Virus record (IMG/VR): IMGVR_UViG_3300029448_000510
Span: 1 to 21,696 of that record
Length of the DNA: 21,696 bases
Source: a virus
Direction: 5' to 3' (one strand)
How positions within the stretch are numbered: position 1 is the first letter of the stretch; every line of letters begins with the position of its first letter. The position numbers and the translations under genes were made by a program. The notes under the pieces are model-generated. The model did no database searches, had not been told where the DNA came from, and saw nothing but the letters and a program-made list of their open reading frames with translations. This document shows positions 1,202-21,696 of this stretch, piece after piece.

Positions 1202-1269
1202 GTATTTTCTCCATTTTGAAATTATATACCAAAGGACCTATTTAGTCAAGTTTTATTTTTAGGGTGGTA
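1202..1269 (-). promoter_or_regulatory. Intergenic promoter P2 for the fibre cassette
   Basis: On the minus strand the -35 box is TTGACT (1244-1249) and the -10 box is TATAAT (1221-1226), with a 17-base spacer: 11 of 12 positions match the sigma-70 consensus. A run AAAAATAAAA lies just upstream of the -35 and could act as an UP element. It is preceded by CACCCT (1261-1266), which touches the end of the J gene region. The predicted start of transcription is near 1214, so the leader is about 13 bases and the Shine-Dalgarno (1209-1212) lies almost at the 5' end. No terminator hairpin is visible between J and this promoter, so readthrough from the tail operon is also expected. Confidence 0.82.
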
Positions 1270-4200
1270 TTACGAAAGGTCTCCAAGTTTTACTCGCGTA
1301 GTATTACCCTCTTTAATAATAATTCTTCGGTTGTTAGACTCTAAAACAATACTTCCATTAGCATCCGTCCCTGTTATTGTATTTGCAGCAATAGTCCAAC
1401 CTCCTACCTCTCCAGCTTCTTTATTACCATCTTTAGCATGTAGATTAGTAGCAGTAGTACCTCCTATAGATACAGCATTCGCAATACTACCTGTATTGAA
1501 TGTAAAATTATCTGCAGTAATATTTCCAGCTTTTGTTATTTTAAATACAGCAGTACCTGCTTTATTCCTTGTTTCAAAAACAGAATCTGAATCAGCACCA
1601 GGTAAGGTTAATAATATTTTTGAACCACCTCCGTTTGTTCCTCCCGTATTTCCAAAGTTTGGCCCTTGAATTGTTCCTGTTGTAATATGAGCACCATCTA
1701 TAGCGGTTGTATCATAAACAGAAGAGCCATCCTCACTAAAAGTGCCACCGCTAAAGGTAACTACACCTGTAAAAGAAGTATGCTCAACAGCAGCAGTTAT
1801 ATTTACTGTTACAGTATTTGAGGTTGCACCTGAACTTCCATCTGTAAAGGAGTATCTCGCTACCCAGTAGTGATCATCACTATCTATATTTACTACGTAG
1901 AAATTGTTGCTATAACCTCCTGCATCAGTTGCTTCCTGAGTTAAATTATTACTTAAAGTTCCAGTTATTCCTCCAGCTGAAAAACTATAAGTACCAGTAC
2001 CTGCGGGAGTAAAAGGATTGGTATTATTAGTAGTTCGAAAATAAATATACCCTTGAACACTTCTTTTGCCAGAGTCTCCCGCGCTACCTTGATCTCCATG
2101 AACCGCTATTACTGCACCAGCACTCCAATTCCAAGAATGTGCATTAATAGTAGTATTAGCGGAAGCATCAGTTATAGTAACCTGTCGTTGATGTAGATAC
2201 GGCTTAGCGGTTGTAGTTTTCTGAGGGGCTGCATACCAATCATTTGATTCAGACGCACTATTAGTCCAAGTAATCGTACCTGAATCAAAATTTATTGTTC
2301 CAGCGGTACCAGTAGTCCCCCCTGGAGTACCATTATCTGGAAAACTCTGTGCAGCACCATCGGTAGCAGCAAGTTTATAAATAGTTATAACTTTAGTAGA
2401 TGCTCCTGTTTGCCCCGTATCTCCTGTTATAGATTTACTCAAGGTCTGAGTAGTGTTAATAGTTTTCGCATTAGCATTTGCTTGCTTATAAATTATAGGC
2501 CAAGTAATTACTTCATCTGTATCAGTATTGGCAGTAGTAGAATGATTACCAATAGTAACAACATTACTACTGACACCGGAGGGAGTTCCAATAGTTACAT
2601 CGCTTCCTGTAACCGTAGGGGTCCCAATATACCATTCCCCGTTGTCTAAAGTTCCTTGAGGGTTGTTGTAGCTATGTGCTCCAGATCCTCCAACATATGA
2701 ATAAACTTCACCCCCAACAATTAATTCAAGTGTAGTACTAGATCCTGGGATAGTAGCTACATCTGCACCTCCTATTTTACCACTTAAATCGGTAGTATAT
2801 GTATGCGCTTGATTTGAGTTTACAATAGCTACACCACCTGAACCAATTTTAATGCCTACTATAGAAATACTATCTGTGGCTACAACTGAACTGGGTGCAT
2901 CTCCAGCGCTATAACTACCTGGTTTTTCTCCTACTTCTACTTTTACTACTTTTGGCCAGTTTGCTTTAACATAAGTGGCTGGAATACTTGCACTTGCATA
3001 CGTATATGTAGCAGCTTGAGTGCCTGTTGTGTCTGTCCAAGCACCCACAGTACCATCAAAAGTAAATCTATATAAAGGATCAGTAAAATTATTTGCAGTT
3101 GCAGTAATTACAATATTGTTACTACCACTACTATTATAAACAGGAGTACTACCTTCTTCATCATAAACTATAGAGTAGTCATCTGAAGTTAAGTTTACAA
3201 TTTTACCATCAGCCCCAGCGGCACCTGCAATTGATGCTCCATCTTTTACTTTAATAATTTTAAAACTTTTTGATTTTGAGTTACTTTGATCTGATGTTTC
3301 TCTTACCGTAACAGTAAAGTCTAAAGAGGACCCACTATCATAACCTATACCACCGGAACCATCATGTAACTGATATGTTAAAGTTTGTCCTGTAACAGCA
3401 CTATCAGAAGAGCCTATAAAAGAGCTTTGTGCAGATGCACTTATTGCCGGACTTCCTTGAGTAAAACCATTTCCAGTAATTGTAAACTCAGGAGCATCGT
3501 ATGCTATTGCGTCCGCTACTAGGGTAATTACTGCTTCGCCCTGTAAAGCACTACTTGAATTATAGTTAAGAAATACAATATTTGAATCCACTATAAGAGC
3601 ACGTAGCCCTGTAAGAGTTGTATCCTCTATCCAATTTATAGGAGTATGAGTATAGTTACTTCCACTTCTACTTACTCGTGCAATAATTGCATCATTAGCT
3701 GTATCAGTTCGTAAAGTATTTCTTGCAATTGCTTTAGCTTCATCAACACTTGTAACTGTTGAATCAGTATCATTTAATCTTCTATCAACATATAAAGTAT
3801 CATCATCCTGTATAAAAGTAACCTTTCCACCTATATACTTATCTGTTGCATACTTTATTCGAATTATATCCCCTACTTCAAATCGAGTAGTAAATGCAGT
3901 TGTACCTTCGCTTTTAACAACCTTATTAGTTCTAGCGGCAACTGTTACCCTAGCATCCGCATTATTTGTACAATCTGTCCAATCATTCTCTGCATTAGCG
4001 GCATACTGGGTTAAGTCTCTCCAGTATCCTTGCGAAGTGTTTTCAAAGTCGATAGCAACGCTTGATACTAACTTAAAGTAGTCACTAGTAGAATCAGCAT
4101 CAAAATAAATAAATCCATGACCCCCGTCTGCAAGAGCTGTTAAACTTTGTTGATAAGTAGCGGCTGTACTTTGATTTGCATTATTAACCTTTGTACCAGG

Positions 4201-7200
4201 TGCTCCAGGAGATTGCATAGCCCAGTCAACTACGTTCATAGACCACGTACTGGTGCTTGAAGACATCTTAGAGTTTGATCTTATACCATTAGGAACTCCA
4301 TCAGCAGTTCTAATACAAGAAACTGCAAACTTATCTTGTACTTCTATTACCTGCCACTTAATCTCTGATCTTTTACCCTCTTTTGATATAGTTTGAACCC
4401 CAAAATTATAAATACCATCAGGAATCCCACTAAAATTTACGAAGCGCCTAGATGCGTTTGTAATATCAATTAAGTCAGTACCATCCGGAAGTTTGGGATG
4501 TATATGTAAGGCAAAAGAAGATAAATGCCCATACTCTGTCCCATCACTATTTAAAGGAGTTTCCCACATAACCTGCAACTCTTGAAGCTGCTGCTTATGC
4601 ATGGGAGTTTCAAATACATATACCGCTTCAGGTTGTGGAACAGTATCAGGCTCTGGAGTACGAACAGGATCTTGTATTGCTACTCTTAAGTCTTTATCAA
4701 CTACATCAAACTTACTATTGTAAAACTCTACTCCTGTAATTTGATGATTATTATCTTTATCCTGTTTTATACTTAAAATTTTATATTCTTTATAGGAAGG
4801 TAAAGTGTTCACACCTTTAAACGTTTCTTTAATAGCCCATACCGTAGAATCAGGAATAGTACCTGAAAAAGCACTAGAAAGTGCAATTTGAGATACTCCA
4901 TTTACTATAGTAACATTTGAAGAAGTAAAAGACTTGGCTTCGACAGAAGTCGAGTTTCTAAACTCTACTAATATGTCATTTCCTGCATCGTCTTGTATAT
5001 TTAGAATATTTTTTTCTACTTGCTCATCTGAGTCATTAGTACCTATAAGTTGAGTTGAAGTACCTGCTATCTTTCCATAAGTAACAGTATCTCCTCGATT
5101 ATATGTATAAGCAGTTCCTCCATGAGTTACAGTTGCAGAAGCATCTTGTGCAAGAACTACAGTACGCTTCATAACTAATAAAGACAGAGTATATGTGTAA
5201 TCAGACCCTGCTTGGAAAGAAAAAGATTCTGCATTACCTCCTTCAACCTGTGCTTCAGAAGAAAGAGAAGCTACATTCCGGTCTAGTGTAATAGCAGAAT
5301 TGGAAGAAGCAGTTATTCTACCACTAAAAGAAACTCCTGTTTCCACTTTATTCTGTAAATTTATTATGTCCCCTGGAGCTAGAAAACTTGCATTAGTAGA
5401 GGTCTTAAAGGTAACAATCTCTGTTTGATTTACTGCTGTCCATGCTTTCCATCTACCAAATCTTATTGCTTGGCCTTCCGAAGTACATCCAAAAGCAACT
5501 GCCTTAGCAGGAAGAACTCTTCCTGTTTCAATTATATTATCTCTATCCTCTATTATTAAAGGCTCTGCTTTGTATGCCGACAAAGGATTATTCCAAAGAA
5601 CAGTAAATTGGTTAGCTCTAGTTTTACTAGCAGTATTCTGGGTTGAAAGAGTACCTTCAAGTATATTTGCTTCTGAAAAATTATATATAGGAGTTGCAGG
5701 AGAGTCTTGTACTGTTGACATTTGGCCATCTAGCCAGTACAACATACCCCTAAAAACAGTTGCCATGTCTTTAAGAACTTTATAAGCCTCGGCAGATTTA
5801 GTAAGGTATAAATTTGTCGTAAAACGAGGCTCTGTTCCGCCATCTCTTGTAGGAACTAATTCATCACAGTATTTTGCAATTTTATAAAGTTGAAACTTAT
5901 TTATATCAGTCTGAGCTAAAAAATCTCCTAATCCATATCTATTATTTATAAGTATATCATAAAATATCCATGCAGGATTATCTGTATAGTACGTTGCAAG
6001 ATCAAGACTACTAGAGTTAGAGGTGCCTTCATCACTAAACTCTCCATTCCATAATCCTGTATAAGTTGCTACCCCTGTTGTTGTTAAATGACGGGGAGTA
6101 TAGTTTGAAGGAATTTTTACTTTTAAACCCCTTACATGGTATGAGCGTTTTGGAGGGTTACTAAAACTTTTTGAACTAAATCTTACCGAAGCCATTGCAG
6201 AATAAGGATGCTCAAGCTTTTCGTCAATAATTGCTATAACTTGTGCAATTTTTACACTATCTATTACCGCACTTACTCCGGAAGTTCTTCCTTGAACAAT
6301 ATAACCCTGCCCATTTAGTTTTCCTGTATGATTATTACTATTACTTTGTCCATCAGGAGTAAGGCGAGTAATTTGCAGTCTCATATCCTGTATATTTAAA
6401 AAAGTATTTACAGGTATTTCAACAGTATAGGAAATAGCAGTTTTTTGGAGACCAAACCACTTTTGGTACTTAAAAGCTCCTCCTGTAAGATCCTTCCAGT
6501 CTGTGGGGTTTGCTCCACCAGTTTCTGATCCCTGAAGTTGTATATTAAAAGCAGCTCCTCCACTGAAGTCGTTTCCTTCTTCGTCCATTGCATAATGACC
6601 CCCAGGAAACTCAAAATGTACTTTTATTCTATCAATTTCATTTATCTGTGCGCTTGTAAAAGAAGTACTAAATACTATTATTTTTTGTACCATTCCAGTA
6701 GGTACAGGGTCTACATCAGGATAACCTACGCCTATAGTTGTAGGATAAGAATTTGTGTTATTAAATATCTCTGCTTGAGCAGAAGATAAAGTAACTGGAA
6801 AAGATGCAACTCCCTGTCCTGCTATTTGGTAGAAGGGTTCTTGAATACGATTCCCTACACGAAACTCAATAGAGGATCCTGGGTACTTTTGTCCACCTCG
6901 AGGAGAACCTCCAGTAGTACTTGATCCTAGTACTCCTACTTCTCCACCTAACGTGAATTCTTTGTCAGTAACGGCAAGAGCATTGCTACTTTTAGGTATA
7001 TAAATAACATTATTAGTATTAACTGTTTGAATTTCTACTTTTAGAACCCAATCTATAAATACTTCTGCATAAACCTCGTTTGTTCCTGATGCATACGTTT
7101 CCGGTATAATTTGTGCGTTTATAGTAGTATTATAGGGTTTAAAAATAGCGCGTTTTGTATCTCCTGAATTTAACTCTGAGTCATATCCCGTGTCATGAGT

Positions 7201-7830
7201 GGATATTAAATCACCTTTTAAAGTCTCACCACTAGGTAACTTAACTCTACATATGGGTTTCAGGTTGGAAAATTCTCCACCACGTAAAGTAGGCTTAAAG
7301 TCTTGATCAAAAAACGTAGTTTCTGCAAAAGGGGACGTACTAGCTACAGCGCACAGCCTAATACTTCCTATTGTATGAATAGTTGCGGGGCCTTCTAGTG
7401 TTTTTGTAACTATTCTTTCTACTTTTGCCTTAGAAGACGATGCCGAAATAATAGTTATCCAACGATATACATAATCACTACTGTAAGTTTCTGCTAAATC
7501 ATTAAAGTATGCTGTGTTTCCTTGTCTGTCTTTTAAAGAAGCTGTGACAGGTTGATTAAGCCCAGAAGCTGCTGCAAAAGTTATAGTGTGAGGCTCCCCT
7601 GTTTCTTCTGCTTTAGAGCTTTCTTTTAAAATTCTATTCCTATCAGCTAGTTGATCCCCCGCTAAATAAACAGATGCTTCACCATTTACCAAACCCTCTA
7701 TAGGACCTTCAGAAATTAAATCAGTAACAGAAACTTCTTGAATATCTGACCCACGTTTTGACGCTATAAGAGGATCCAGATACCCAACAGTACCTGGGCC
7801 CGGTTCGAAAGGATTCCAGCCCGGATACAT
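1270..7830 (-). CDS. J: Tail tip attachment protein, lambda J-like, greatly enlarged
   Basis: A 2186-residue central tail-tip protein, about twice the length of lambda J (1132). The N-terminus carries the family motif VSVTDLISEGPIEGLVNG (about residues 33-50). The J core follows: SYHVRGLKVKIPSNYTP (about 560-580), NNPAWIFYDIL then RYGLGD (about 615-635), YCDELVP and GGTEPRFTTNLYL (about 650-680), matching lambda J segments closely. A jelly-roll-like insert seems to lie at about 300-520. A fibronectin-III-like stretch covers about 1050-1165. The last third is a chain of beta modules joined by Gly-X-X linkers near residues 1530, 1800 and 1910, ending in a region (ITTGTI, GGWTIAANTI) typical of fibre C-termini. 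In lambda, J forms the trimeric tip hub and its C-terminus binds the receptor; the same is inferred here. It starts at a TAATG junction with the I-like gene. Confidence 0.95.
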   Translation of the reverse strand: MYPGWNPFEPGPGTVGYLDPLIASKRGSDIQEVSVTDLISEGPIEGLVNGEASVYLAGDQLADRNRILKESSKAEETGEPHTITFAAASGLNQPVTASLKDRQGNTAYFNDLAETYSSDYVYRWITIISASSSKAKVERIVTKTLEGPATIHTIGSIRLCAVASTSPFAETTFFDQDFKPTLRGGEFSNLKPICRVKLPSGETLKGDLISTHDTGYDSELNSGDTKRAIFKPYNTTINAQIIPETYASGTNEVYAEVFIDWVLKVEIQTVNTNNVIYIPKSSNALAVTDKEFTLGGEVGVLGSSTTGGSPRGGQKYPGSSIEFRVGNRIQEPFYQIAGQGVASFPVTLSSAQAEIFNNTNSYPTTIGVGYPDVDPVPTGMVQKIIVFSTSFTSAQINEIDRIKVHFEFPGGHYAMDEEGNDFSGGAAFNIQLQGSETGGANPTDWKDLTGGAFKYQKWFGLQKTAISYTVEIPVNTFLNIQDMRLQITRLTPDGQSNSNNHTGKLNGQGYIVQGRTSGVSAVIDSVKIAQVIAIIDEKLEHPYSAMASVRFSSKSFSNPPKRSYHVRGLKVKIPSNYTPRHLTTTGVATYTGLWNGEFSDEGTSNSSSLDLATYYTDNPAWIFYDILINNRYGLGDFLAQTDINKFQLYKIAKYCDELVPTRDGGTEPRFTTNLYLTKSAEAYKVLKDMATVFRGMLYWLDGQMSTVQDSPATPIYNFSEANILEGTLSTQNTASKTRANQFTVLWNNPLSAYKAEPLIIEDRDNIIETGRVLPAKAVAFGCTSEGQAIRFGRWKAWTAVNQTEIVTFKTSTNASFLAPGDIINLQNKVETGVSFSGRITASSNSAITLDRNVASLSSEAQVEGGNAESFSFQAGSDYTYTLSLLVMKRTVVLAQDASATVTHGGTAYTYNRGDTVTYGKIAGTSTQLIGTNDSDEQVEKNILNIQDDAGNDILVEFRNSTSVEAKSFTSSNVTIVNGVSQIALSSAFSGTIPDSTVWAIKETFKGVNTLPSYKEYKILSIKQDKDNNHQITGVEFYNSKFDVVDKDLRVAIQDPVRTPEPDTVPQPEAVYVFETPMHKQQLQELQVMWETPLNSDGTEYGHLSSFALHIHPKLPDGTDLIDITNASRRFVNFSGIPDGIYNFGVQTISKEGKRSEIKWQVIEVQDKFAVSCIRTADGVPNGIRSNSKMSSSTSTWSMNVVDWAMQSPGAPGTKVNNANQSTAATYQQSLTALADGGHGFIYFDADSTSDYFKLVSSVAIDFENTSQGYWRDLTQYAANAENDWTDCTNNADARVTVAARTNKVVKSEGTTAFTTRFEVGDIIRIKYATDKYIGGKVTFIQDDDTLYVDRRLNDTDSTVTSVDEAKAIARNTLRTDTANDAIIARVSRSGSNYTHTPINWIEDTTLTGLRALIVDSNIVFLNYNSSSALQGEAVITLVADAIAYDAPEFTITGNGFTQGSPAISASAQSSFIGSSDSAVTGQTLTYQLHDGSGGIGYDSGSSLDFTVTVRETSDQSNSKSKSFKIIKVKDGASIAGAAGADGKIVNLTSDDYSIVYDEEGSTPVYNSSGSNNIVITATANNFTDPLYRFTFDGTVGAWTDTTGTQAATYTYASASIPATYVKANWPKVVKVEVGEKPGSYSAGDAPSSVVATDSISIVGIKIGSGGVAIVNSNQAHTYTTDLSGKIGGADVATIPGSSTTLELIVGGEVYSYVGGSGAHSYNNPQGTLDNGEWYIGTPTVTGSDVTIGTPSGVSSNVVTIGNHSTTANTDTDEVITWPIIYKQANANAKTINTTQTLSKSITGDTGQTGASTKVITIYKLAATDGAAQSFPDNGTPGGTTGTAGTINFDSGTITWTNSASESNDWYAAPQKTTTAKPYLHQRQVTITDASANTTINAHSWNWSAGAVIAVHGDQGSAGDSGKRSVQGYIYFRTTNNTNPFTPAGTGTYSFSAGGITGTLSNNLTQEATDAGGYSNNFYVVNIDSDDHYWVARYSFTDGSSGATSNTVTVNITAAVEHTSFTGVVTFSGGTFSEDGSSVYDTTAIDGAHITTGTIQGPNFGNTGGTNGGGSKILLTLPGADSDSVFETRNKAGTAVFKITKAGNITADNFTFNTGSIANAVSIGGTTATNLHAKDGNKEAGEVGGWTIAANTITGTDANGSIVLESNNRRIIIKEGNTTRVKLGDLS

Positions 7831-10658: not shown

Positions 10659-11062
10659 ACGCCATATATTCTTTTAAATTGTGCGGATACATTATAGTGA
10701 TTTGCATTTGCATATTGAACTGACCAATTAGTACAAACAACTTTAACTGTTGTTACAGGATTTCCATCACTATCATTCGTGGAGCTGTTTGCGTCAGGAA
10801 TAGTAAAATCAAAACTTAAAACACCCCCTTTATCATCAAAAAACTTTACTATATCATCTGCTACAGTTCTTTCTCTATTTTTCATACTGATTCTATAAGT
10901 TTCTTCAATATGATTTATTCCTTTTATTGCACGTTGTTCGTATCCGTCCCCAAATCTTGCTACTCTTACTGAGGGCTTTGAGTTTCTTGCAAGATCGTTA
11001 TCTGGAAGAATTGTTGCTGTTGTTATATTTGTACCAGAAATTTGAAATCCAATATCAGGCAT
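10655..11062 (-). CDS. M: Minor tail protein, lambda M-like
   Basis: A 135-residue protein of the lambda gpM family (lambda M is 109). The diagnostic stretch is VRVARFGDGYEQRAIKGIN at about residues 32-50, corresponding to VRKVRFGDGYSQRAPAGLN in lambda M. Downstream, a FFDDKGGVLSFDFTIPD segment and the final VVCTNWSVQYANANHYNVSA, ending FKRIYGV, match the LEEHGGWKSFLWTPP and VTCAKWSS parts of lambda M. In lambda, gpM forms a ring between the tape-measure end of the tube and the L/J tip. The start overlaps the tape-measure stop as TAATG and the end overlaps the L start as ATGA, so it lies between two coupled junctions. Confidence 0.93.
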   Translation of the reverse strand: MPDIGFQISGTNITTATILPDNDLARNSKPSVRVARFGDGYEQRAIKGINHIEETYRISMKNRERTVADDIVKFFDDKGGVLSFDFTIPDANSSTNDSDGNPVTTVKVVCTNWSVQYANANHYNVSAQFKRIYGV

Positions 11063-14000
11063 TATACTGCTCCATACGGACTAAGAATTCCGCCGTTTCG
11101 TTTTTGATTAACTAACTCTTCTTGTATCATTTCTGCAATTCTCTCACCTAACTGGGACATATTCTGACTAGTACTATCTGTCTCAGAAGTGGCACCACCC
11201 TGGCTATCCATATTTATGGTGACTGCTACATTATTGTTTTGCGCACCACCTGCTGATTTCCCGGGGGACATATCTACAGGAATACTTCTACCGTCTGGAA
11301 GAGGTACTACAGCTTCATTTCCATGTAGTACAGCAGGGTACCCCGATCTAGGGCCTCTTGCGACTCCTCCACTAGCATACCCTAAGGGCGGGTATAGTCC
11401 TGTTTTGTGTCCTGTTCCTGTAACAGACTTCCCTATCATTACTGCCGTGAGCTCCTGAGTTGCTAAGGTGTTTGCTGCCTCGGCCGTGACTTCCACCTTT
11501 CCCATTATTTTATCTCTTAGTGCATTTAATTTATCCCAAATAACTTTTGCCTGGGTAATTGCAGTCATTAAAGCCAGTGCTTTTTGTACTGCTTGGGCAG
11601 CTTTACTATTTCCTAATAATGTACTAACTGCTAACCCTAATCCTGCTACCATTTTTGCAGTTTCGCCTGTTAGGGCTGTCATTACACCTTGTAAACCGCC
11701 CTCTCCTTCTCCTTCTTCCGGCGAGTCTGGAACAATGGGTGTGCCATGACTACTAACAAGTCCTTCTCTAAAGCCTTCTGGCTCGCCTCCAGGTATAGCA
11801 CTAGAGTCCCCTCCAAGTTTAGCTACAGTAGTATCATCAAGAGCAACTACTGTTTGTGCTTCTGTTTTTACTGCTGTTATATCAGTATCAGGAGTAACTT
11901 GTACACCCGGATTATCAAGAGCATATCGTAATGCACCGGGAGGTAATATACCCCCTGGAGGACCCTCATCTACTGTCTCAATGGCGGGTTTTTCTCCCTC
12001 ATGTGATGCTCCCATACAGTTAGAAGAAGAGCAAGCATCTTTAATTGCATTAGAAAACCTGTCAGCGGATTCGTCTAATGCTTTTTTCATTTTTCCAGTT
12101 GCTGTATCTACTCCGTTCTCTAAACCTAGCTTTAATGTCTCAGCTCCTGTTGTATGCCCTGCTAATATCTGTTCCTTTAGTATTTCCCCTTCGGTCTTCA
12201 TCTTTAGAAAGCCCATAATTTTACCCGTTAAGTTTTTTGAGAAAGCATCTATCATAGAATCTACTACACTTTTTCCCATCTTTAACATGGCATCCTTAAA
12301 ACTACTTTCCTCTCCTTTCATAAGGCTAGAAATGGCACCTTGCATTCCTGTCTCAAAAGCTTGCTTTCCCGCAACACCTATTTGAAACATCATACCTAGT
12401 TGCTCTGCTAATTGCTCATTTTGCTCTATTATCTTATCTCTTTGTAATTCTAATTGTGTGACTCGTTCAGACTCTGTGTTTTTCGCTTCGGTTGTAGCGA
12501 CTGAAATCTCATTATTATATTTAACTATATCTTGCTTATTTATTGCAATTTTTTGAAGTATTCCCAACTCCTGTGCCTGTAGAGTTGTTGAACCATGTAA
12601 AGCCTTTTGAAATGCTTTTTCAATTCTAAGTTTATTGTTTGCGATTTGTATTTCTACTCTGGAAATCCTATTGAGAACCTCTAACTGCTTCGTTAGTACT
12701 GCTATAGATGCATCTGCCTCACCTGCAAGGTCTTTTCTTGCCTTCTTCAGCCTCGTCAACATGCCTATCTGATCTTCCATCAACTGCTCTAAACTAGATA
12801 CAGATGTAGAGTACTTCGTAATAGAATTAATTGCTGAAGTATACTGTTTTGTTAATTCTGCTTCTTGTTGCTTTACAAAGCCAGCTTGCTGACCAAGTTC
12901 TTGAAATCCTTCTGATAACTCTTTAAGCCTAGCTATTTTAGCATCGTCTAAAGACTCACCCTTCTCATTTAATCTTATTTGCTGGTTCAGCAAGTCAAGA
13001 AATTCTTTCTGGTTACTGGTAGCCTTGTCGCCAAGTGCCTTAAAGAAATTTCTAACTTGGACAGTAGATTCTGAAAATTTCGTACCTAACTCTTTAACCT
13101 TGTCTGCAACCTTGCTTGCATCTTTTTGATACAAATCAAAAGTATCCTGCTGCAGTTTTAATCTAGTAAGCTCGGCTCTCTCGCTATCCTCAAGGGGGTC
13201 CACGGGTTTTCGATTTTGCCAGTTTGGTCCCCTCTTCACATTTCCTGGCTGTTTTTCTCTCTTAACACGCGCTTCTAAAGCTGCCATCCGTTCTTTTTCG
13301 GTGTCTGTAAGTTCTACAATACCCTTAGACGCCAGTAAACTGCCATTATGAAAGTCCGCCATAGCTTGCGAAGCATCTATAATTGAGGGAGTTATACCCG
13401 CAAAAAAGTTGCCTTGAGCTTCTAAAGCTGACAGCCCACTCTGGCCACCTTCAGTTAGAGACCTTTGAATGTCGTTAAATTTTTTGTATTCCTCAGTTAC
13501 AGTACTAAGGGACTCTGCAATATCCTCAAAAGTAAGTGCTAAATTTTTTGCTACCTCGCTTTCTTTAAAAAATCCTAAAGACTTTGCAAACTGCATAGAA
13601 AGTTCATATGCAAGTATTAACATTCCTATCCATCCTGCTGCACGAAATAGCTTGTCTACTTTTCCGGACATTTTTGCAAAACCACTCTGCATAGCAGCCA
13701 TTGTAGATGACCATTGTGCTTTCATTTTTTTCATTTGCAAGCCTGCACCTGCTGTCATTTTTCTCCAGCCCATACCTATTTTTTCCATTGTGGTATTATG
13801 GCCTCGTTGCATGCCTTTTAGCATAGCAATATAGTCCTGTTTCTGACGCTTATTCATATTTCTTACTGCGCCGTTTCCTTTCTCTGCATGTCGTAGCATT
13901 TGAGAAACACGTCTTTTATCTTTTCTTAAGGTCTCTGTATCTCCGGTCTGAAGCATCTCAAGACCACTTCCTTTTTTAGCTTTTCCTGCAGCTTGAGCAG

Positions 14001-15075
14001 CTCCTTGAGGACCTGCTTTCTTTCTCAGTCTTTCTTGTGCTGCCTCTAACTCTTCAATTTCTTTTTGGGCAGCGTCATATGCTTCTCCTGCTTCCAATGC
14101 AGATTGTTTTGATTTTTCTGCCCAGCTATCTAACCCTGGTATTATTGCTTTTAATATTGGTACTGCCATAAGAGCAAGAGCTGCTGTTAATCCTAATATA
14201 TTCTCTGTTAAAAATTTAGCTGTGGGCTCTGCTATGGATGCAGTAAATGTCTTAACATGCTTCATTACTCTATCAAATTCAATACCTAAACGAGATACAG
14301 CATTCACTTGTACATCCGTGGCTTTTGCTACTGCACCGTACTTAGCCTCTAACTGAGTTTGAACTTCTACAAATACAGCTTGTTTCTTTTCATAATTACT
14401 TAAATCTTGTGCAGATTTATTTAGGGAAGTAGCATAGTTTTCCTGTGCATCATTTAAACGAAGTATAATACCTAATTCATCTAAAAGTTCTGGTTCTGCT
14501 TTTGTTACACCCCGAATAAGACGGTTAAAAGAGTCTGTAACATCCCTTCCTAGTATTTTTGATAAGTTTCCAGCACCCGCAGCCAGCTGTTCTATTTGCC
14601 CTGCTCCAAGCCCTGAAGCAATACCTATAGAAGCTGCTTCACTAGCTGCCTTAAACTCTAGCATCATTCCGGAGGCTTCTTGAACATTTTTTGTAAGAGA
14701 CTGCATACCTACACCAGTTGCGCCTGTAAAAGCAACTTGAGCATCCTGCATTACACGAAAGTCAGCCGCTGACTTTAAGAATTGAAAGGCAGCAGTAATG
14801 GCAAATACATTAGAAGCAAGGACTGCATAAGCAGGAACAAGAGTTCCTGTCATTCCTTGTGCCATTTTTGAAAAGTTTTTTGTAGAATTAGCAGATTGTT
14901 GTGATAAACCTTTTAAGTTTCGATCCGCATCTCTACTAGATTTACCAGTTCTAGTACTAGCCTTACCTACATCGTCAAGAGCAAGGCCTAGTTTTTTGGC
15001 ACTAACAGCCACTCTCTGCATAGAACCGCCATCAGAGGTTTGAATATCAATAAATACTGTATCTTTTTTTGCCAT
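11062..15075 (-). CDS. H: Tape measure protein
   Basis: A 1337-residue protein, the longest helical protein in the block. It is rich in Ala, Gln, Lys and Glu. Hydrophobic segments lie near residues 78-100 (TLVPAYAVLASNVFAITAAF), 290-314 and 478-500. Coiled-coil-like stretches lie near 330-353 and over roughly 745-895. Near the C-terminus it has the motif LHGNEAVVPLPDGRSIPVDM, which is widespread at the ends of tape-measure proteins. Such proteins fill the tail lumen, set tail length and are ejected to help DNA cross the envelope. At about 0.15 nm per residue, 1337 residues would give a tail near 200 nm; this is a rule-of-thumb inference. It follows the GT chaperone at a TAATG junction and precedes M at another. 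A CSSSNC pair occurs near residues 1014-1020. Confidence 0.96.
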   Translation of the reverse strand: MAKKDTVFIDIQTSDGGSMQRVAVSAKKLGLALDDVGKASTRTGKSSRDADRNLKGLSQQSANSTKNFSKMAQGMTGTLVPAYAVLASNVFAITAAFQFLKSAADFRVMQDAQVAFTGATGVGMQSLTKNVQEASGMMLEFKAASEAASIGIASGLGAGQIEQLAAGAGNLSKILGRDVTDSFNRLIRGVTKAEPELLDELGIILRLNDAQENYATSLNKSAQDLSNYEKKQAVFVEVQTQLEAKYGAVAKATDVQVNAVSRLGIEFDRVMKHVKTFTASIAEPTAKFLTENILGLTAALALMAVPILKAIIPGLDSWAEKSKQSALEAGEAYDAAQKEIEELEAAQERLRKKAGPQGAAQAAGKAKKGSGLEMLQTGDTETLRKDKRRVSQMLRHAEKGNGAVRNMNKRQKQDYIAMLKGMQRGHNTTMEKIGMGWRKMTAGAGLQMKKMKAQWSSTMAAMQSGFAKMSGKVDKLFRAAGWIGMLILAYELSMQFAKSLGFFKESEVAKNLALTFEDIAESLSTVTEEYKKFNDIQRSLTEGGQSGLSALEAQGNFFAGITPSIIDASQAMADFHNGSLLASKGIVELTDTEKERMAALEARVKREKQPGNVKRGPNWQNRKPVDPLEDSERAELTRLKLQQDTFDLYQKDASKVADKVKELGTKFSESTVQVRNFFKALGDKATSNQKEFLDLLNQQIRLNEKGESLDDAKIARLKELSEGFQELGQQAGFVKQQEAELTKQYTSAINSITKYSTSVSSLEQLMEDQIGMLTRLKKARKDLAGEADASIAVLTKQLEVLNRISRVEIQIANNKLRIEKAFQKALHGSTTLQAQELGILQKIAINKQDIVKYNNEISVATTEAKNTESERVTQLELQRDKIIEQNEQLAEQLGMMFQIGVAGKQAFETGMQGAISSLMKGEESSFKDAMLKMGKSVVDSMIDAFSKNLTGKIMGFLKMKTEGEILKEQILAGHTTGAETLKLGLENGVDTATGKMKKALDESADRFSNAIKDACSSSNCMGASHEGEKPAIETVDEGPPGGILPPGALRYALDNPGVQVTPDTDITAVKTEAQTVVALDDTTVAKLGGDSSAIPGGEPEGFREGLVSSHGTPIVPDSPEEGEGEGGLQGVMTALTGETAKMVAGLGLAVSTLLGNSKAAQAVQKALALMTAITQAKVIWDKLNALRDKIMGKVEVTAEAANTLATQELTAVMIGKSVTGTGHKTGLYPPLGYASGGVARGPRSGYPAVLHGNEAVVPLPDGRSIPVDMSPGKSAGGAQNNNVAVTINMDSQGGATSETDSTSQNMSQLGERIAEMIQEELVNQKRNGGILSPYGAV

Positions 15076-15503
15076 TAGCCTCTTACATTGTGAGTATAGT
15101 TCTTACCACTCTCTTGCTGTCGTTTTCGGTCATCAGCCTTTCTTTTTCTATCTGCTTCTTCCGCTTTGTGCTGTACAGTTATACCTTCGTACATCTTCAT
15201 AAAGTATAATGTAATTTTTGGTTCTTCTACTTCAAATAAATTAAATAAAGTATCTATATGGCTCCAATCTTTTCCCATGTAGGATCCTGACATTCCTTCC
15301 CACACATCAGATAGGTAGCTATACACAAAAAATGCCACTTGAACCTCTGCAGGAAATGCAGTTGCTTCAAGCGGCATTCTTTTAGGATCTGGTTCTTCGC
15401 CTAATTGTTCACAGATAAGTAAATATTTTTCAACATCAATACTTGATTTTTCTTTTACATATCTTTCAAGTAACTCCTGTACTTCAGCTACTTGTTCCCA
15501 GTA
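15075..15503 (-). CDS. GT: GT extension of the tail chaperone, made by -1 frameshift from G
   Basis: This frame is open from a TGA just upstream of the slip site down to the TAA at 15075-15077. It has no convincing start of its own. A downstream ATG at 15377 has no Shine-Dalgarno and would leave 100 residues, while clearly protein-like coding continues upstream (YWEQVAEVQELLERYVKEKS, then EKYLLICEQLGEEPDPKR). Joining G through its Phe141 to this frame from TAC at 15503 adds 142 residues, giving about 283 in total; lambda gpGT is about 279. In lambda the T domain of GT recruits tube subunits while the G part coats the tape measure. The stop overlaps the tape-measure start as TAATG. The T part ends in a very basic, charged tail (EADRKRKADDRKRQQE). 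Confidence 0.85.
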   Translation of the reverse strand, partial: YWEQVAEVQELLERYVKEKSSIDVEKYLLICEQLGEEPDPKRMPLEATAFPAEVQVAFFVYSYLSDVWEGMSGSYMGKDWSHIDTLFNLFEVEEPKITLYFMKMYEGITVQHKAEEADRKRKADDRKRQQESGKNYTHNVRG

Positions 15504-15509
15504 AAATTT
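15467..15509 (-). promoter_or_regulatory. Programmed -1 frameshift site of G/GT
   Basis: The slippery heptamer is A AAT TTT at 15503-15509 in the G frame (GAA AAT TTT ACT). It fits X XXY YYZ, and both tRNAs can re-pair one base back (AAA TTT). It is the only in-frame heptamer of that pattern between the TGA that opens the -1 frame and the G stop at 15488-15490. Eight bases downstream a weak hairpin can form: CAAGTA (15489-15494) pairs with TACTTG (15467-15472), with a further CTG/CAG pairing inside. Its AT-rich stem may only mildly stimulate slipping. Confidence 0.75.
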
Positions 15510-15925
15510 TCTAAGTCACCTACTGTTTCTGTGACCCACGTATCAAAGTCTGCAGCGTTCTTCATAAGCAACTCTGCATTATCCCCTGTATACGGCAATT
15601 CATCATCGGGATCAAAGGAAGAGACATCTACCAAAAGAAGCTCTTCTAGGTATCGATACTTTAGTCCTTTCCACCCTTTAATTACTGCTTTACAATATTC
15701 AATTAGAAACTTATCTTCGTCTAACTCTTCTTCTAGCTGCCTAGTTTTCTTATTCCATTTATTAGATAAGCAACGTTTTCGTAGTTTAACTAACTCTTCT
15801 CTTGCTAGGTAGCATAAGTCTACTGACATTCCTGCATATCCAGGAAAGTCACAAGCTACTGTTTTGCTTGGAGTCATAAGACTCGCTAATGATACTGGCT
15901 CTTTCTTTACTGCTGTTTGTGGCAT
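15488..15925 (-). CDS. G: Tail assembly chaperone, lambda G-like
   Basis: A 145-residue protein; lambda gpG is 140. It starts with a Pro/Lys/Ser-rich stretch including LASLMTPSKTVACDFPGYAG, then a helical body with YLAREELVKLRKRCLSNKWN and KFLIEYCKAVIKGWKGLKYR, then an acidic C-terminal part (DPDDELPYTGDNAELLMKNA, ending in ENFTGNK). The D/N-rich LPYT segment after a KxVIKGWxGL helix is typical of phage tail chaperones; the assignment also rests on position between tube and tape measure, size, and the frameshift into a T-like frame. It is expected to bind the tape measure while the tube assembles and to be absent from virions. It is the first gene after promoter P1; an AGGA about ten bases upstream serves as ribosome site. 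Confidence 0.87.
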   Translation of the reverse strand: MPQTAVKKEPVSLASLMTPSKTVACDFPGYAGMSVDLCYLAREELVKLRKRCLSNKWNKKTRQLEEELDEDKFLIEYCKAVIKGWKGLKYRYLEELLLVDVSSFDPDDELPYTGDNAELLMKNAADFDTWVTETVGDLENFTGNK

Positions 15926-16000
15926 GTGAATAAATTCCTATTAAAAATTAAATTATACGGTATAAGAGACGAAATGTCAAGAATTATTTTTGGAGGGTGA
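15926..16000 (-). promoter_or_regulatory. Intergenic promoter P1 for the tail operon
   Basis: On the minus strand the -35 box is TTGACA (15975-15980) and the -10 box is TATAAT (15952-15957), separated by exactly 17 bases: 12 of 12 consensus positions for sigma-70. The region just upstream reads CACCCT (15994-15999), CC, AAAAATAA, TTC, then the -35. The A-rich tract could contact the RNA polymerase alpha subunit. The predicted transcription start is near 15945, giving a leader of about 20 bases before the G chaperone ATG at 15925. Nothing protein-coding is seen in this gap. Confidence 0.88.
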
Positions 16001-16029
16001 TAAGTGAAGGGGCCGAAGCCCCTTACTTA
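16001..16029 (-). terminator. UUCG-capped hairpin after the tail tube gene
   Basis: Directly after the tube-gene stop, the transcript reads TAAGT AAGGGGC, loop TTCG, GCCCCTT, one bulged C, ACTTA: a 12-pair stem with one bulge, closed by the very stable UUCG tetraloop. No U-run follows (the next bases are TCACCCTCC), so it is at best a weak intrinsic terminator. It may instead protect the 3' end of the abundant tube mRNA. It lies between the tube gene and promoter P1. Confidence 0.7.
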
Positions 16030-17748
16030 TTAAGAGTACGTAGCTGGTGCGTAATACACAAGGTTAGTAATCTCGTTTGCTGTACCAAAGTCCGCGGGTA
16101 ATGCGTGGAAGTTACTTTCAAGTGAAATCACATCTTCTACAGAGTGAGAAGGCACCTCAAAGTGAACCTTAGGCATTGTTATTACAAGAGCCGGTGTTCC
16201 TGCTTGTGCAGATCCACCAATTTCCAGTGTTACCGTGAACACGTTTACAACTTGTCCCATTGCAGCGGTAGACGTAAGATCATTAAAGAACTGTCGAGAA
16301 GTTCCTGAAGTCTTGTCTGAGTCACTCAATGTTAAGTAGCAAGTTGCTGATCCTGTAACGTTACGAGCACCTGTTACGTGCTCTAGCGGTTTGTTTACAA
16401 AGCCCAACTCATCAGGTACTAAGTACGAAATATTATTACCAATGGTAAAGCTTCCGCCTGTCATTGTAAGGTTGTACTTACCATCCCCATTTGAAACCAT
16501 TCCACCTGGGAATACTGTTTTATTATCAGCAGTAATCTCAATCTTAGTTAAACGATTTCGTATAAAGGTATTTGTACTTGTTACAGCTTCATCAATTGCT
16601 TGAGTAAGTGTAAGGTTTCCAGAACCTGGGACTGTTTTAACCATATGAACAGCAGTACCTTGAGCATTATCAGTCTGGAAGTAAAAATCACCAGCAACCA
16701 ATAAATCCCCATCAGTACCATCTTGAGTACGTTTCGGAGTTGTAGCATTTCCAGTTTGTCCAACTGTTAACGTAGTACCGGTTCCAGTTCTAAAGTTTGT
16801 GGAAAGATCCTCAATCTCTTTTGCGAAACCTGACCAGTTCAAAGTAGCGATTCCTTCAACATCAAAGTCAATACTTACTTCGTTTGCAACTGCTTCTGAA
16901 CACTTATAAATAACAGGGTTCAAAGCATCTGTTTCAATTACAAAGTAAAGTTGCATTGGATGAAGGGCTGATCTATTTGATTCAGTCATTACAACAGTAC
17001 TAGTACTAGTGGCGGGAGTAATAACGGGGCCAGATACTTTATTTACAGCTCTTCGAAAGCCTTTTGCACCTGAAGTTAAAGTTGCAACATCAAAAGTAAA
17101 TGCAGTATCTCCTGCGTCAGCACCAATTTTTTCACTTGGAACACTAATAGTCTCATCTACTGCGTATCCATCACCAGGAGAAGCAACAGCCGAAACTGTC
17201 GTAACCCCACTACCATTTACTGCTATAGTAAAAGATGCGCCTGTTCCGCCACCACTTACATCAGTGGTATAATCACTTTCTGTAACTGTGTATGTACCCT
17301 CGGCTCGGCTTGTATCTGTTCCGCCACCAAGAGTATCAACAGTTGCAATACCTGTTGAACTATCATAAACGTCTGCACCTGACATTGCTGCCCAGAGAAC
17401 TTCTTCCACAGAGTGAACATCAGTTCCTGACCCATCCGCAGTTGCAACACCACTTGCTACGCTTCCACCTTTCGATTTAAAGGGTCTAATATAAGTACTA
17501 AAAGACCACTCTGCTGGAGCAAGAGAGTCTGTAAATAAACGTCTACCTCTACGAGATACGCCTACTGTACTTTCCATTTCCGAGAGTAATATTTCAGAAG
17601 TATTTGTAGTCTGAGAGAAACTATATCCATCAAGAATAGGTACCTCCCATAACTGTCCCGCTCCCGCGGTGTTAGCATCTTCGTCGTCTTGATTCCGAAA
17701 TTGAATAAACAATCTCGTATCCCGACTAAAATACAACTGATCTGCCAT
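16030..17748 (-). CDS. V: Major tail tube protein with beta-rich inserts
   Basis: A 572-residue protein, more than twice lambda gpV (246). The assignment rests on position (after the tail terminator, before the chaperones), on a strong AGGAG ribosome site at 17756-17760 with a 7-base spacer, and on its own 3' hairpin, all expected for the most abundant tail protein. The N-terminus (LYFSRDTRLFIQF, LWEVPILDGYSFSQTTNTSE) looks like a tube-forming beta domain. Residues about 148-224 form a separate module: EGTYTVTESDY, SGGGTGASFTIAV, then PGDGYAVDETISVP. I know this Gly-rich module from structural proteins of marine phages. A further Thr/Gly-rich stretch lies at about 325-420. The C-terminus is again tube-like (HFEVPSHSVEDVISLESNFH). 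The inserts probably decorate the outside of the tail. Confidence 0.83.
   Translation of the reverse strand: MADQLYFSRDTRLFIQFRNQDDEDANTAGAGQLWEVPILDGYSFSQTTNTSEILLSEMESTVGVSRRGRRLFTDSLAPAEWSFSTYIRPFKSKGGSVASGVATADGSGTDVHSVEEVLWAAMSGADVYDSSTGIATVDTLGGGTDTSRAEGTYTVTESDYTTDVSGGGTGASFTIAVNGSGVTTVSAVASPGDGYAVDETISVPSEKIGADAGDTAFTFDVATLTSGAKGFRRAVNKVSGPVITPATSTSTVVMTESNRSALHPMQLYFVIETDALNPVIYKCSEAVANEVSIDFDVEGIATLNWSGFAKEIEDLSTNFRTGTGTTLTVGQTGNATTPKRTQDGTDGDLLVAGDFYFQTDNAQGTAVHMVKTVPGSGNLTLTQAIDEAVTSTNTFIRNRLTKIEITADNKTVFPGGMVSNGDGKYNLTMTGGSFTIGNNISYLVPDELGFVNKPLEHVTGARNVTGSATCYLTLSDSDKTSGTSRQFFNDLTSTAAMGQVVNVFTVTLEIGGSAQAGTPALVITMPKVHFEVPSHSVEDVISLESNFHALPADFGTANEITNLVYYAPATYS
17077..17307 (-). 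other. Inserted Gly-rich beta module within the tail tube protein
   Basis: Residues about 148-224 of the tube protein. It has three recognisable parts: a GTYTVT strand, a SGGGTGASFTIAV strand with the following GVTTVSAVASPGDGY turn, and a DETISVPSEKIG segment closing on AFTFDVATL. The unit is self-contained and separates the two conserved-looking parts of the tube domain. Likely a small surface domain on the tail exterior; function unknown. Confidence 0.55.
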
Positions 17749-19629: not shown

Positions 19630-20216
19630 TAAAAATTCTTATACAAGTCTAAGACTCGCTTGATGTGATCAGGAAAACTCACATTGTTAGGTTGACTAGT
19701 ACTCCCTGGATTTTGTAAACTTGCTCCTGCAATACTCTGTCTTTGCTTATGCTCATCCTTCAAGTAATAAGTAACCAAATCAAGAACTGCAAGTTTTAAG
19801 TCTCCCGGAATCGCAGAATATCCTGCGGTATATATAACTTTTACTGCGCCTGTTCCTGTAGGCCAGTTTTTATATCCTCCAGAAGTAGTTCTTAATATAC
19901 TATCTGTTTTACTATCTAAAGCGTATTCATATGCTCCGGTAGTAAGCGTACTATAAGCATTATTATATGCTGTTCTCTCTTGTACACTTACAATCGTATT
20001 GACGGGGCTTTCAGTAAGCTGTACAATATGAGTGCCCCAATCAACATTAAACTCTTCCGTTTTATTTGAAGAGTAAAAATCTACAAAACTGTTTCCACAA
20101 TAAGTCTTTACTAATGTACTTATAGAAGGGATTAAAACATTAAGACGTCCATCCTCTTTTGGCTGAGTGATGCCCTCTGCGGTTTTATACTCCTGTAATG
20201 TTATCAGATCTGCCAT
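19629..20216 (-). CDS. Head-tail connector/adaptor (HK97 gp6-like)
   Basis: A 195-residue protein following the capsid gene. The N-terminus MADLITLQEYKTAEGI, then LIPSISTLVKTYCGNSF, fits the helical start of gp6/gp15-type adaptors (a LITLxExK opening, then a helix of the form IxxxSxxVxxYxG). The middle is a beta insert (THIVQLTESPVNTIVSVQER, YALDSKTDSILRTT). The key C-terminal motif is VKVIYTAGYSAIPGDLKLAV, then a LVTYYLKDE helix, closely like the VxYxAGYxxIPxDLxxA motif of this family. Twelve such subunits form a ring beneath the portal. Its ATG has no Shine-Dalgarno: the preceding bases are ACTAATTTACTT. The terminator for the capsid gene ends only 13 bases upstream, so this gene depends on transcripts that pass that terminator. 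Confidence 0.85.
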   Translation of the reverse strand: MADLITLQEYKTAEGITQPKEDGRLNVLIPSISTLVKTYCGNSFVDFYSSNKTEEFNVDWGTHIVQLTESPVNTIVSVQERTAYNNAYSTLTTGAYEYALDSKTDSILRTTSGGYKNWPTGTGAVKVIYTAGYSAIPGDLKLAVLDLVTYYLKDEHKQRQSIAGASLQNPGSTSQPNNVSFPDHIKRVLDLYKNF

Positions 20217-20228
20217 AAGTAAATTAGT

Positions 20229-20256
20229 AAAAACTTAGGGGAGGAGAACCTCCCCC
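20229..20256 (-). terminator. Rho-independent terminator after the capsid gene
   Basis: On the minus strand the transcript has GGGGAGG, loop TTCT, CCTCCCC (stem 20238-20244 with 20249-20255), then TAAG and a run of five T (20229-20233). A GC-rich 7-pair stem followed closely by a U-run is the standard intrinsic form. The run begins four bases after the stem, so strength is probably partial. It would lower transcription of all genes downstream relative to the capsid. Confidence 0.78.
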
Positions 20257-20264
20257 AGTTTCCA

Positions 20265-20282
20265 TGATTACCAAGGTAATCA
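20265..20282. repeat. Perfect 18-base inverted repeat after the capsid stop
   Basis: TGATTACC AA GGTAATCA is a perfect palindrome with 8-base arms around AA. It lies between the capsid stop (20293-20295) and the terminator. As RNA it gives a 7-pair stem with a four-base loop and no U-run, so it may be a stabilising hairpin that works with the terminator. As DNA it could bind a dimeric protein. No second copy was noticed in the window. Confidence 0.55.
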
Positions 20283-20292
20283 GTCGTATCAA

Positions 20293-21696
20293 TTACTGAT
20301 ACTCGATTCGTACTGCAGGCTCATTGTTAGTTGTGCCAGCAACCAACTCGTTAAATCCGAGAGATTGTGCGGCAACAATGGCCGTGCGCTGACCGGCTAC
20401 TTCGTAGTCAGTCTCAATGCTAACACCCTTCAGTCGGGGGATAACATAGTTGCGTACGTTGACAGCAGCGGCAGCGGTACCTGTAAAGGCGCCAGCTTCC
20501 TTCGTGCCTTGAGCAAGTGCATCAGTTGCAACTACGGGAGAACCGTAAATGCTTCCAACAGCACCGATCAGCTTCATTGCTGTGTCGTTACCAACTTCTG
20601 ATACATCAGAGAAGGCAGCGTCTGCAATCAAGTTGTAGTACTGGTCAATACCAACGATGTATGCAACATCGGCAGGATTCATACCATATTTGCCCATCTC
20701 AGATCGGATGGAAAGCAAATTAGCACCAGTAATAGCATCGGAAGTACCAGATGCATCGGGGTCAGTTACAAGAGCAGAGTCTGCTGCGAGGAAAGACCCA
20801 GCACCATCAGTACCAGCTCCACCTACGAGACCTACAAAAGAGGAGTTACCATTTATGATGGCTCCGTCAATTGCTTTTGCATGAGCTCTTGCAAGAGCTG
20901 AAGTAATAATAGGCAGAACGCTTATCACTACTTGCTCGTCGGTGTCATTCGCAATGAACGTACCAGAAACGAGTCTAAAAGCTTGTAACAACACGCGATT
21001 AACGTTATAGTTGTTGTCACTTGCACCAGACTCTTCCAACAGATTGGCAGTAGTTTCCAAACCAGTTGCGTTGAAGTTAGCATTCTCAGTATCAGGTGCG
21101 ATCGGCAATACGGTTGCACCAGAAGCTACTTGAATTTCGCGGAAGAGAGGAGCAACTTTCTGCTCTAATCGTACTTCCTCTTCAAAAGCCTGAGAAACAC
21201 CTACGTCGATACCAGCTGCGCTAGTAGCATCATAGGTTACGCCTGCTTTCTGTAAGACGTCCTTCGCAAAGCCAGTGTCCCAACCTTTACGAGTAACTTT
21301 ACCAAGGATGTGTGCTTGGAGAAGCTCTTTACCATGCTTCGTAATATCACCTCGGTCCCGATCTGCGAAAACACGCTTAGAATCACGCATCTTTTCGATT
21401 TCATCGGATTTTTCTTTAAGCTCAGCTGCATGTTGCTTAATAACTTCATCCAACTCAGCATCTTTGTCAGCCAACTTAGATTCAACATCTTGAACCAAAC
21501 GCTCAGCACCTGACTCAACGGCAGTTGCTACAGCAGCTTTGACCTCTTCTTCTTGCTGAACTCGTGCTTCTGCTTCCGCAGTAGCTTTCTCGTCAGCTTC
21601 CTTTTGTACAGCTTCATCAGCTGCTTTTTGCTCGGCTTGCTTCATTGCAATTTTAGCAGCAGTTTCCTCAGCTACTTTTTTAGCAAAAGCTTCCAA
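20293..21696 (-). CDS. Major capsid protein, HK97 fold, 5' end outside the window
   Basis: The frame runs to the right edge with no true start: the edge codon is TTG and upstream sequence is missing. 467 residues are visible. Residues about 1-105 are a highly charged Ala/Glu/Lys coiled coil (VAEETAAKIAMKQAEQKAAD and on to ELKEKSDEIEKMRDSKRVF), like the delta domain of HK97, where a fused scaffold is later cleaved off. From about 110 the HK97-type body follows: GKELLQAHILGKVTRKGW, then APLFREIQVASGATVLPIAP, then LARAHAKAIDGAIINGNSSF, then YIVGIDQYYNLIADAAF and YGSPVVATDALAQG, ending TDYEVAGQRTAIVAAQSLGF. The body pattern fits the Phage_capsid family. The gene is visibly richer in G+C than the tail genes, fitting biased codon use in a highly expressed gene. 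A maturation protease would be expected just upstream. Confidence 0.93.
   Translation of the reverse strand: MEAFAKKVAEETAAKIAMKQAEQKAADEAVQKEADEKATAEAEARVQQEEEVKAAVATAVESGAERLVQDVESKLADKDAELDEVIKQHAAELKEKSDEIEKMRDSKRVFADRDRGDITKHGKELLQAHILGKVTRKGWDTGFAKDVLQKAGVTYDATSAAGIDVGVSQAFEEEVRLEQKVAPLFREIQVASGATVLPIAPDTENANFNATGLETTANLLEESGASDNNYNVNRVLLQAFRLVSGTFIANDTDEQVVISVLPIITSALARAHAKAIDGAIINGNSSFVGLVGGAGTDGAGSFLAADSALVTDPDASGTSDAITGANLLSIRSEMGKYGMNPADVAYIVGIDQYYNLIADAAFSDVSEVGNDTAMKLIGAVGSIYGSPVVATDALAQGTKEAGAFTGTAAAAVNVRNYVIPRLKGVSIETDYEVAGQRTAIVAAQSLGFNELVAGTTNNEPAVRIEYQ

Follow-up and report, generated by a model that had tools for sequence, protein, structure and literature searches.

A host-type promoter of the T5 kind, designated P_B, most probably restarts transcription downstream of the major tail tube gene in the window (the whole analysed stretch of 21,696 nucleotides), the genes from the tail assembly chaperones to the tail tip then forming a late unit of their own with a hairpin at its boundary. 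As judged from the sequences compared, P_B is a genuine promoter conserved across a large group of T5-like phages, uncultured and for the most part marine. The proposed promoter of the sigma70/sigmaA type combines a UP-like A-tract, a perfect core and 17-bp spacing, at which the host RNA polymerase would restart directly after the tube gene, late in infection, and transcribe the chaperone, tape measure and tail-tip genes (~14 kb, up to a further promoter, P_C) as a separate unit. The phage tail consists of many tube subunits and few tip proteins, a stoichiometry that would provide the motive for setting the level of the chaperone-to-tip block apart: the low-copy tail-tip genes may thereby be uncoupled from the high-copy tube gene.

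Phage affiliation and gene content

On the evidence of its proteins, the phage, itself represented by an uncultured virus record, is T5-like and not lambda-like. Matches to T5-like phages were obtained with the capsid, tube, chaperone and tape-measure proteins, and searches with the major capsid, the tube and the first chaperone retrieved about 900 phage records each, almost all of them T5-like. The matched T5-like phages infect Vibrio, Salmonella, Escherichia and Klebsiella, and T5 itself was matched by the capsid protein. PHROG profiles identified a major tail protein, two tail assembly chaperones, a tape measure, a tail terminator, a head-tail adaptor and a fibre-assembly protein; a Pfam search returned no model for the tube or the chaperones.

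The genes concerned are encoded on the minus strand and comprise the major tail tube protein (16030..17748; PHROG 3575, major tail protein, related to T5-like Vibrio phages), tail assembly chaperone 1 (15488..15925; PHROG 313, E 3e-12, related to T5.143-type proteins) as the first gene after P_B, tail assembly chaperone 2 (15075..15377; PHROG 3914), the tape measure protein (11062..15075; PHROG 3779) and, as the last gene before P_C, a giant putative tail-tip/fibre protein (1270..7830) named from its position and size. Downstream of P_C, a fibre-assembly-like gene (863-1201) is located.

The head and tail genes are arranged in an order similar to that of a lambda-type late operon, and the initial annotation had interpreted the window in these terms. 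This frame was not supported, since capsid, tube, chaperone and tape measure are all T5-like and late sigma70 promoters are normal in phages of this kind. Unlike lambda with its single far-upstream late promoter, the late strand carries at least three promoters, three of which are conserved. The phage family is thus corrected from lambda-type to T5-like. In one relative (L410:5928-7919), the head maturation protease and the major capsid protein, encoded by separate genes in T5, share a single frame of 663 amino acids.

The consensus promoter P_B

The whole-window sigma70 scan revealed a single 12/12 site, TTGACA-N17-TATAAT at 15980-15952 on the minus strand, located within the 104 bp that separate the tube gene (572 aa, stop at 16030) from the chaperone gene (145 aa, ATG at 15925). 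In minus-strand order the sequence reads AAAAATAATTC TTGACA TTTCGTCTCTTATACCG TATAAT, with the -35 hexamer at 15975..15980 and the -10 hexamer at 15952..15957. The chaperone ATG follows 26 nt downstream of the -10 hexamer, and the transcript is predicted to start near 15945 with a leader of ~20 nt; the earlier placement of the promoter as starting 20-27 bases before the gene is accurate if the start of the transcript is meant. The perfect minus-strand match reported by the initial annotation was confirmed, and the case is stronger than was stated there; not reported at that time were an A-tract (15991-15981), a hairpin (16030-16000) and, with 11/12 matches, a further conserved promoter (1249-1221).

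According to a first-order Markov estimate, chance would produce 0.008 sites with 12/12 matches per window when both strands are counted, and 9e-5 within the intergenic DNA of its minus strand. Sites with up to two mismatches were no commoner in the window than in shuffles. Scan hits in general therefore mean little, and the case for P_B is built on its perfection and conservation, not on the scan alone. That P_B represents a functionless chance match in AT-rich DNA, as the equal abundance of one- or two-mismatch sites in shuffles might suggest, has a negligible probability in view of the low expectation at 12/12, and this reading is already refuted by the clade-wide conservation described below.

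P_B possesses the sigma70 consensus core with 17-18 bp spacing and the A-rich region just upstream of the -35 hexamer (about -43) that mark T5-type late promoters, and it lies among the late structural genes of a T5-like phage, on the same strand as these. The A-tract AAAAATAATTC (15981..15991, minus strand) directly precedes the -35 hexamer and resembles the proximal UP element of E. coli. When viral contigs were scanned for AATAATTC together with the core, at least 120 matches were obtained, as compared to 16 for a permuted octamer control. Among 119 consensus promoters sampled regardless of what precedes them, 13 differed from AAAAATAATTC at no more than two positions (mean of 0.3 with shuffled targets). 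The A-tract plus promoter was also found in at least 118 stretches of a genome collection, mostly in Clostridia genomes. A-tract plus core as a phage signature was rejected, because the form is common in bacterial genomes and represents a general housekeeping promoter; being this widespread, it names no host.

Conservation of the tube/chaperone junction

Relatives of the tube gene were fetched from IMG/VR, and the sequence following the tube stop was read wherever covered. Together with a second set of relatives fetched with the chaperone, 116 junctions (76 distinct) from uncultured, mostly marine phage contigs were obtained. All 76 distinct junctions, which were chosen by a 10/12 threshold and include some loci first fetched by the promoter pattern itself, display at least 10/12 matches and a spacing of exactly 17, and are immediately preceded by the A-tract AAAAATAATTC or a slight variation of it. 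At a chaperone identity of >60 %, every distinct junction passed this threshold, including those fetched by protein alone. The -35 hexamer is TTGACA in 57 and TTGACT in the other 19 of the 76 junctions, and the -10 hexamer reads TATAAT (43), TATACT (29) or TAGAAT (4). Pairwise identity amounts to 92 % for the hexamers as well as for the 11-base A-tract, which is near-invariant except for two or three positions, and to 47 % for the spacer; even in pairs with spacers at most 35 % identical, the hexamers still share 90 %. Among the relatives fetched with the tube, every one with the sequence covered carries the A-tract and a promoter, even at a tube protein identity of only 37-45 %, as in five loci (L009, L015, L016, L029 and L032) whose hexamers deviate from the consensus at one or two positions. 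These patterns support strong purifying selection on P_B across the clade, and likewise the earlier proposal of an independent promoter at the tube/chaperone boundary. Within the otherwise variable spacer, position 13 (15962 in the window) is invariant in the 76 junctions (2.0 bits).

The junctions failing the threshold belong to T5, cultured T5-like phages and distant contigs, and most of those with a placeable tube gene harbour another gene between tube and chaperone. Such a gene of ~0.9 kb is present in T5 and in cultured Vibrio T5-like phages. The cultured T5-like phages examined have no promoter at the tube/chaperone junction, which counts against the restart model, and a DNA search for the junction in cultured phages produced short matches only without locating it. 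Four of the uncultured relatives (L029, L090, L150 and L111) contain a gene between promoter and chaperone, and in the latter three, which are among those failing the threshold, the promoter still directly follows the tube gene. For the intervening gene of L029, homology to T5.144 was considered, but the pairwise comparison gave no more than E 0.002 at 20 % identity. From the occurrence of such genes in T5, in cultured Vibrio T5-like phages and downstream of the promoter in these four relatives, P_B could be viewed as a relic that arrived with or outlived the intervening gene and has no current role. This is very improbable, as a relic would decay, whereas 76 junctions have kept core, spacing and A-tract despite their diverged spacers.

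Hairpins at the junction

The 3' end of the tube gene coincides with a hairpin, TAAGTAAGGGGC-TTCG-GCCCCTTCACTTA (16000..16030, minus strand), and the surrounding stretch (15920-16035) folds with -19.9 kcal/mol. In most junctions, a GC stem with a TTCG loop is located between tube stop and promoter, often followed by a U-tract, and the stems differ in sequence with pairing kept (GGGGC/GCCCC, ACCCGC/GCGGGT, AGGGAC/GTCCCT). In sister clades the hairpin has the form of a canonical terminator, and in most of the clade it would act as an intrinsic terminator separating the two units. In the window and seven close relatives (eight junctions in total) the U-tract is absent, and the window carries CCCCTTCACTTATC in its place. 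This state is nested among U-tract forms on the chaperone tree, which is based on few columns and leaves many forks unresolved, and the loss is for this reason taken to be derived. The longer stem without U-tract in the subclade of the window would probably pass some upstream transcription, and the separation from tube transcription may thus be leaky.

This derived loss, with CCCCTTCACTTATC replacing the U-tract of the window, lends some plausibility to the less favoured reading that the subclade hairpin protects or processes the 3' end of the tube mRNA, that the late strand is read from upstream and that P_B merely adds to this transcription. The retention of GC stem and U-tract in most of the clade and of the stem, even lengthened, in the subclade of the window speak against it. 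The two readings are, moreover, compatible and differ as a matter of degree, with restart at P_B behind a hairpin boundary being the preferred one.

In 17 distinct junctions (L431, L449, L452, L458, L461, L467, L480, L482, L483, L485, L488, L494, L497, L499, L500, L503 and L125), a terminator-like hairpin, mostly with a U-rich tail, follows the promoter inside its own leader. The chaperone tree, with its many unresolved forks, forces at least four changes in the order of hairpin and promoter. The arrangement of this subclade, as read from its sequence, does not fit a simple boundary at which transcription stops and then restarts; a hairpin within the promoter's own leader would call for attenuation or read-through.

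A further strong hairpin with a T-rich tail follows the major capsid gene (20228..20264, minus strand; -29.3 kcal/mol for the fold of 20210-20300), comparable with the annotated terminator after D20-21 of T5. An Rfam search of the window gave no match.

Relation to T5 promoters

In T5, sigma70 is used for all transcript classes, and primer extension showed the promoters P-J5 and P-G25 to be both late (PMC7472727). According to the T5 record, P-G25 directly follows an annotated rho-independent terminator downstream of the tape-measure gene, on the same strand as the late genes; its sequence comprises AAAAATAAAAATTTC followed by TTGATA-N17-TATAAT, and the next gene begins within ~40 nt. The order of hairpin and promoter at P_B resembles the P-G25 layout of a terminator followed by an A-tract promoter; the hairpin of the window lies upstream of P_B but has lost the U-tract that the canonical forms of the sister clades possess. 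Unlike T5, the window has the pair behind the tube gene, and its tape measure gene is not followed by a gap. P-J5 is, like P_B, a sigma70-type promoter of the tail region with an A-tract, but is situated inside the gene preceding the tube gene and directs transcription towards the latter; in the equivalent gene of the window, no site with at least 9/12 matches was detected on the late strand. For phage AKFV33, 32 host-type promoters were predicted with 17-18 bp spacing, a TATAATA -10 and an A-rich AAAAATT stretch at -43 (PMC3326045); the -35 consensus is TTGCTw there (PMC3326045), as opposed to the full TTGACA/T here.

P_B is one of a genome-wide set of host-type promoters of a kind already known in T5. 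The initial annotation had considered expression not tied to the late switch. Such independence is not supported, considering that T5 consensus promoters are late (PMC7472727) and that the late and replication strands of the clade share the same promoter form.

Further promoters and the discriminator

Longer contigs of relatives contain three late-strand promoters: P_A after the terminase gene and before the portal-side genes, P_B in the middle, and P_C. In the window, P_C (TTGACT-N17-TATAATTTCA with the -10 hexamer TATAAT, 11/12; 1221..1249, minus strand) follows the giant tail-tip gene and is preceded by ACCACC plus AAAAATAAAAC; relatives have retained it at 14-15 kb downstream of P_B. The late region would accordingly fall into three or more host-promoter units, delimited downstream of the terminase, tube and tail-tip genes. 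A-tract and core recur in this form on the opposite strand, where they precede, among others, the genes for DNA ligase and a DNA-binding protein.

An early or constitutive P_B, by which the tail chaperones would be made ahead of the other structural proteins, is unlikely. Its core and A-tract are identical to those before the opposite-strand replication genes, but T5 promoters equally close to the consensus are late (PMC7472727), and the subclade of the window carries TT after the -10 hexamer, with the T found at P_A and P_C and not the ATA usual elsewhere.

The base after TATAAT is T in 23 of 24 P_A and P_C sites, the P_C sites being essentially one homologous site and the counts not phylogenetically independent. 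At promoters that could be placed at none of these three junctions, the base is A in 138 of 162 cases (mostly ATA); this class was partly chosen by the AATAATTC pattern, drawn from several phage groups and defined only by the absence of marker genes. P_B is mixed (25 T, 55 A), with TT in the subclade of the window and ATG in others. The contrast between T and A in the discriminator is a lead rather than a result. A GGTG/CACC box upstream of the A-tract, found at P_C in 12/15, P_A in 1/9, P_B in 43/81 and other promoters in 11/162 cases, was dismissed as a late mark for being too uneven across the promoter classes.

It is an open question how T5-like phages distinguish early from late promoters when both are strong, nearly identical sigma70 promoters; in T5, the early ones have ATATT in common within the discriminator (PMC7472727). 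One tentative and rather doubtful proposal is that a single core plus A-tract serves early and late genes alike and that timing is conveyed by flanking bases, with a phage protein switching promoters at the discriminator; T after TATAAT would stand for late genes and A/ATA for the rest, possibly in combination with an ACC box that precedes the A-tract. The invoked protein would be similar to gp026 of T5, proposed to act on the discriminator. For testing early/late discrimination, the clade offers hundreds of natural promoters with a shared core and diverged surroundings.

Across 25 contigs, the 11-12/12 pattern occurred 134 times and its reversed control 16 times, these totals being our own sums and including two contigs (G018 and G025) without demonstrated clade membership. 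In two contigs (G019, 41.2-41.9 kb; G021, 35.3-35.7 kb), several 11-12/12 promoters on both strands are clustered within a few hundred bases, close to where gene blocks of opposite strands meet.
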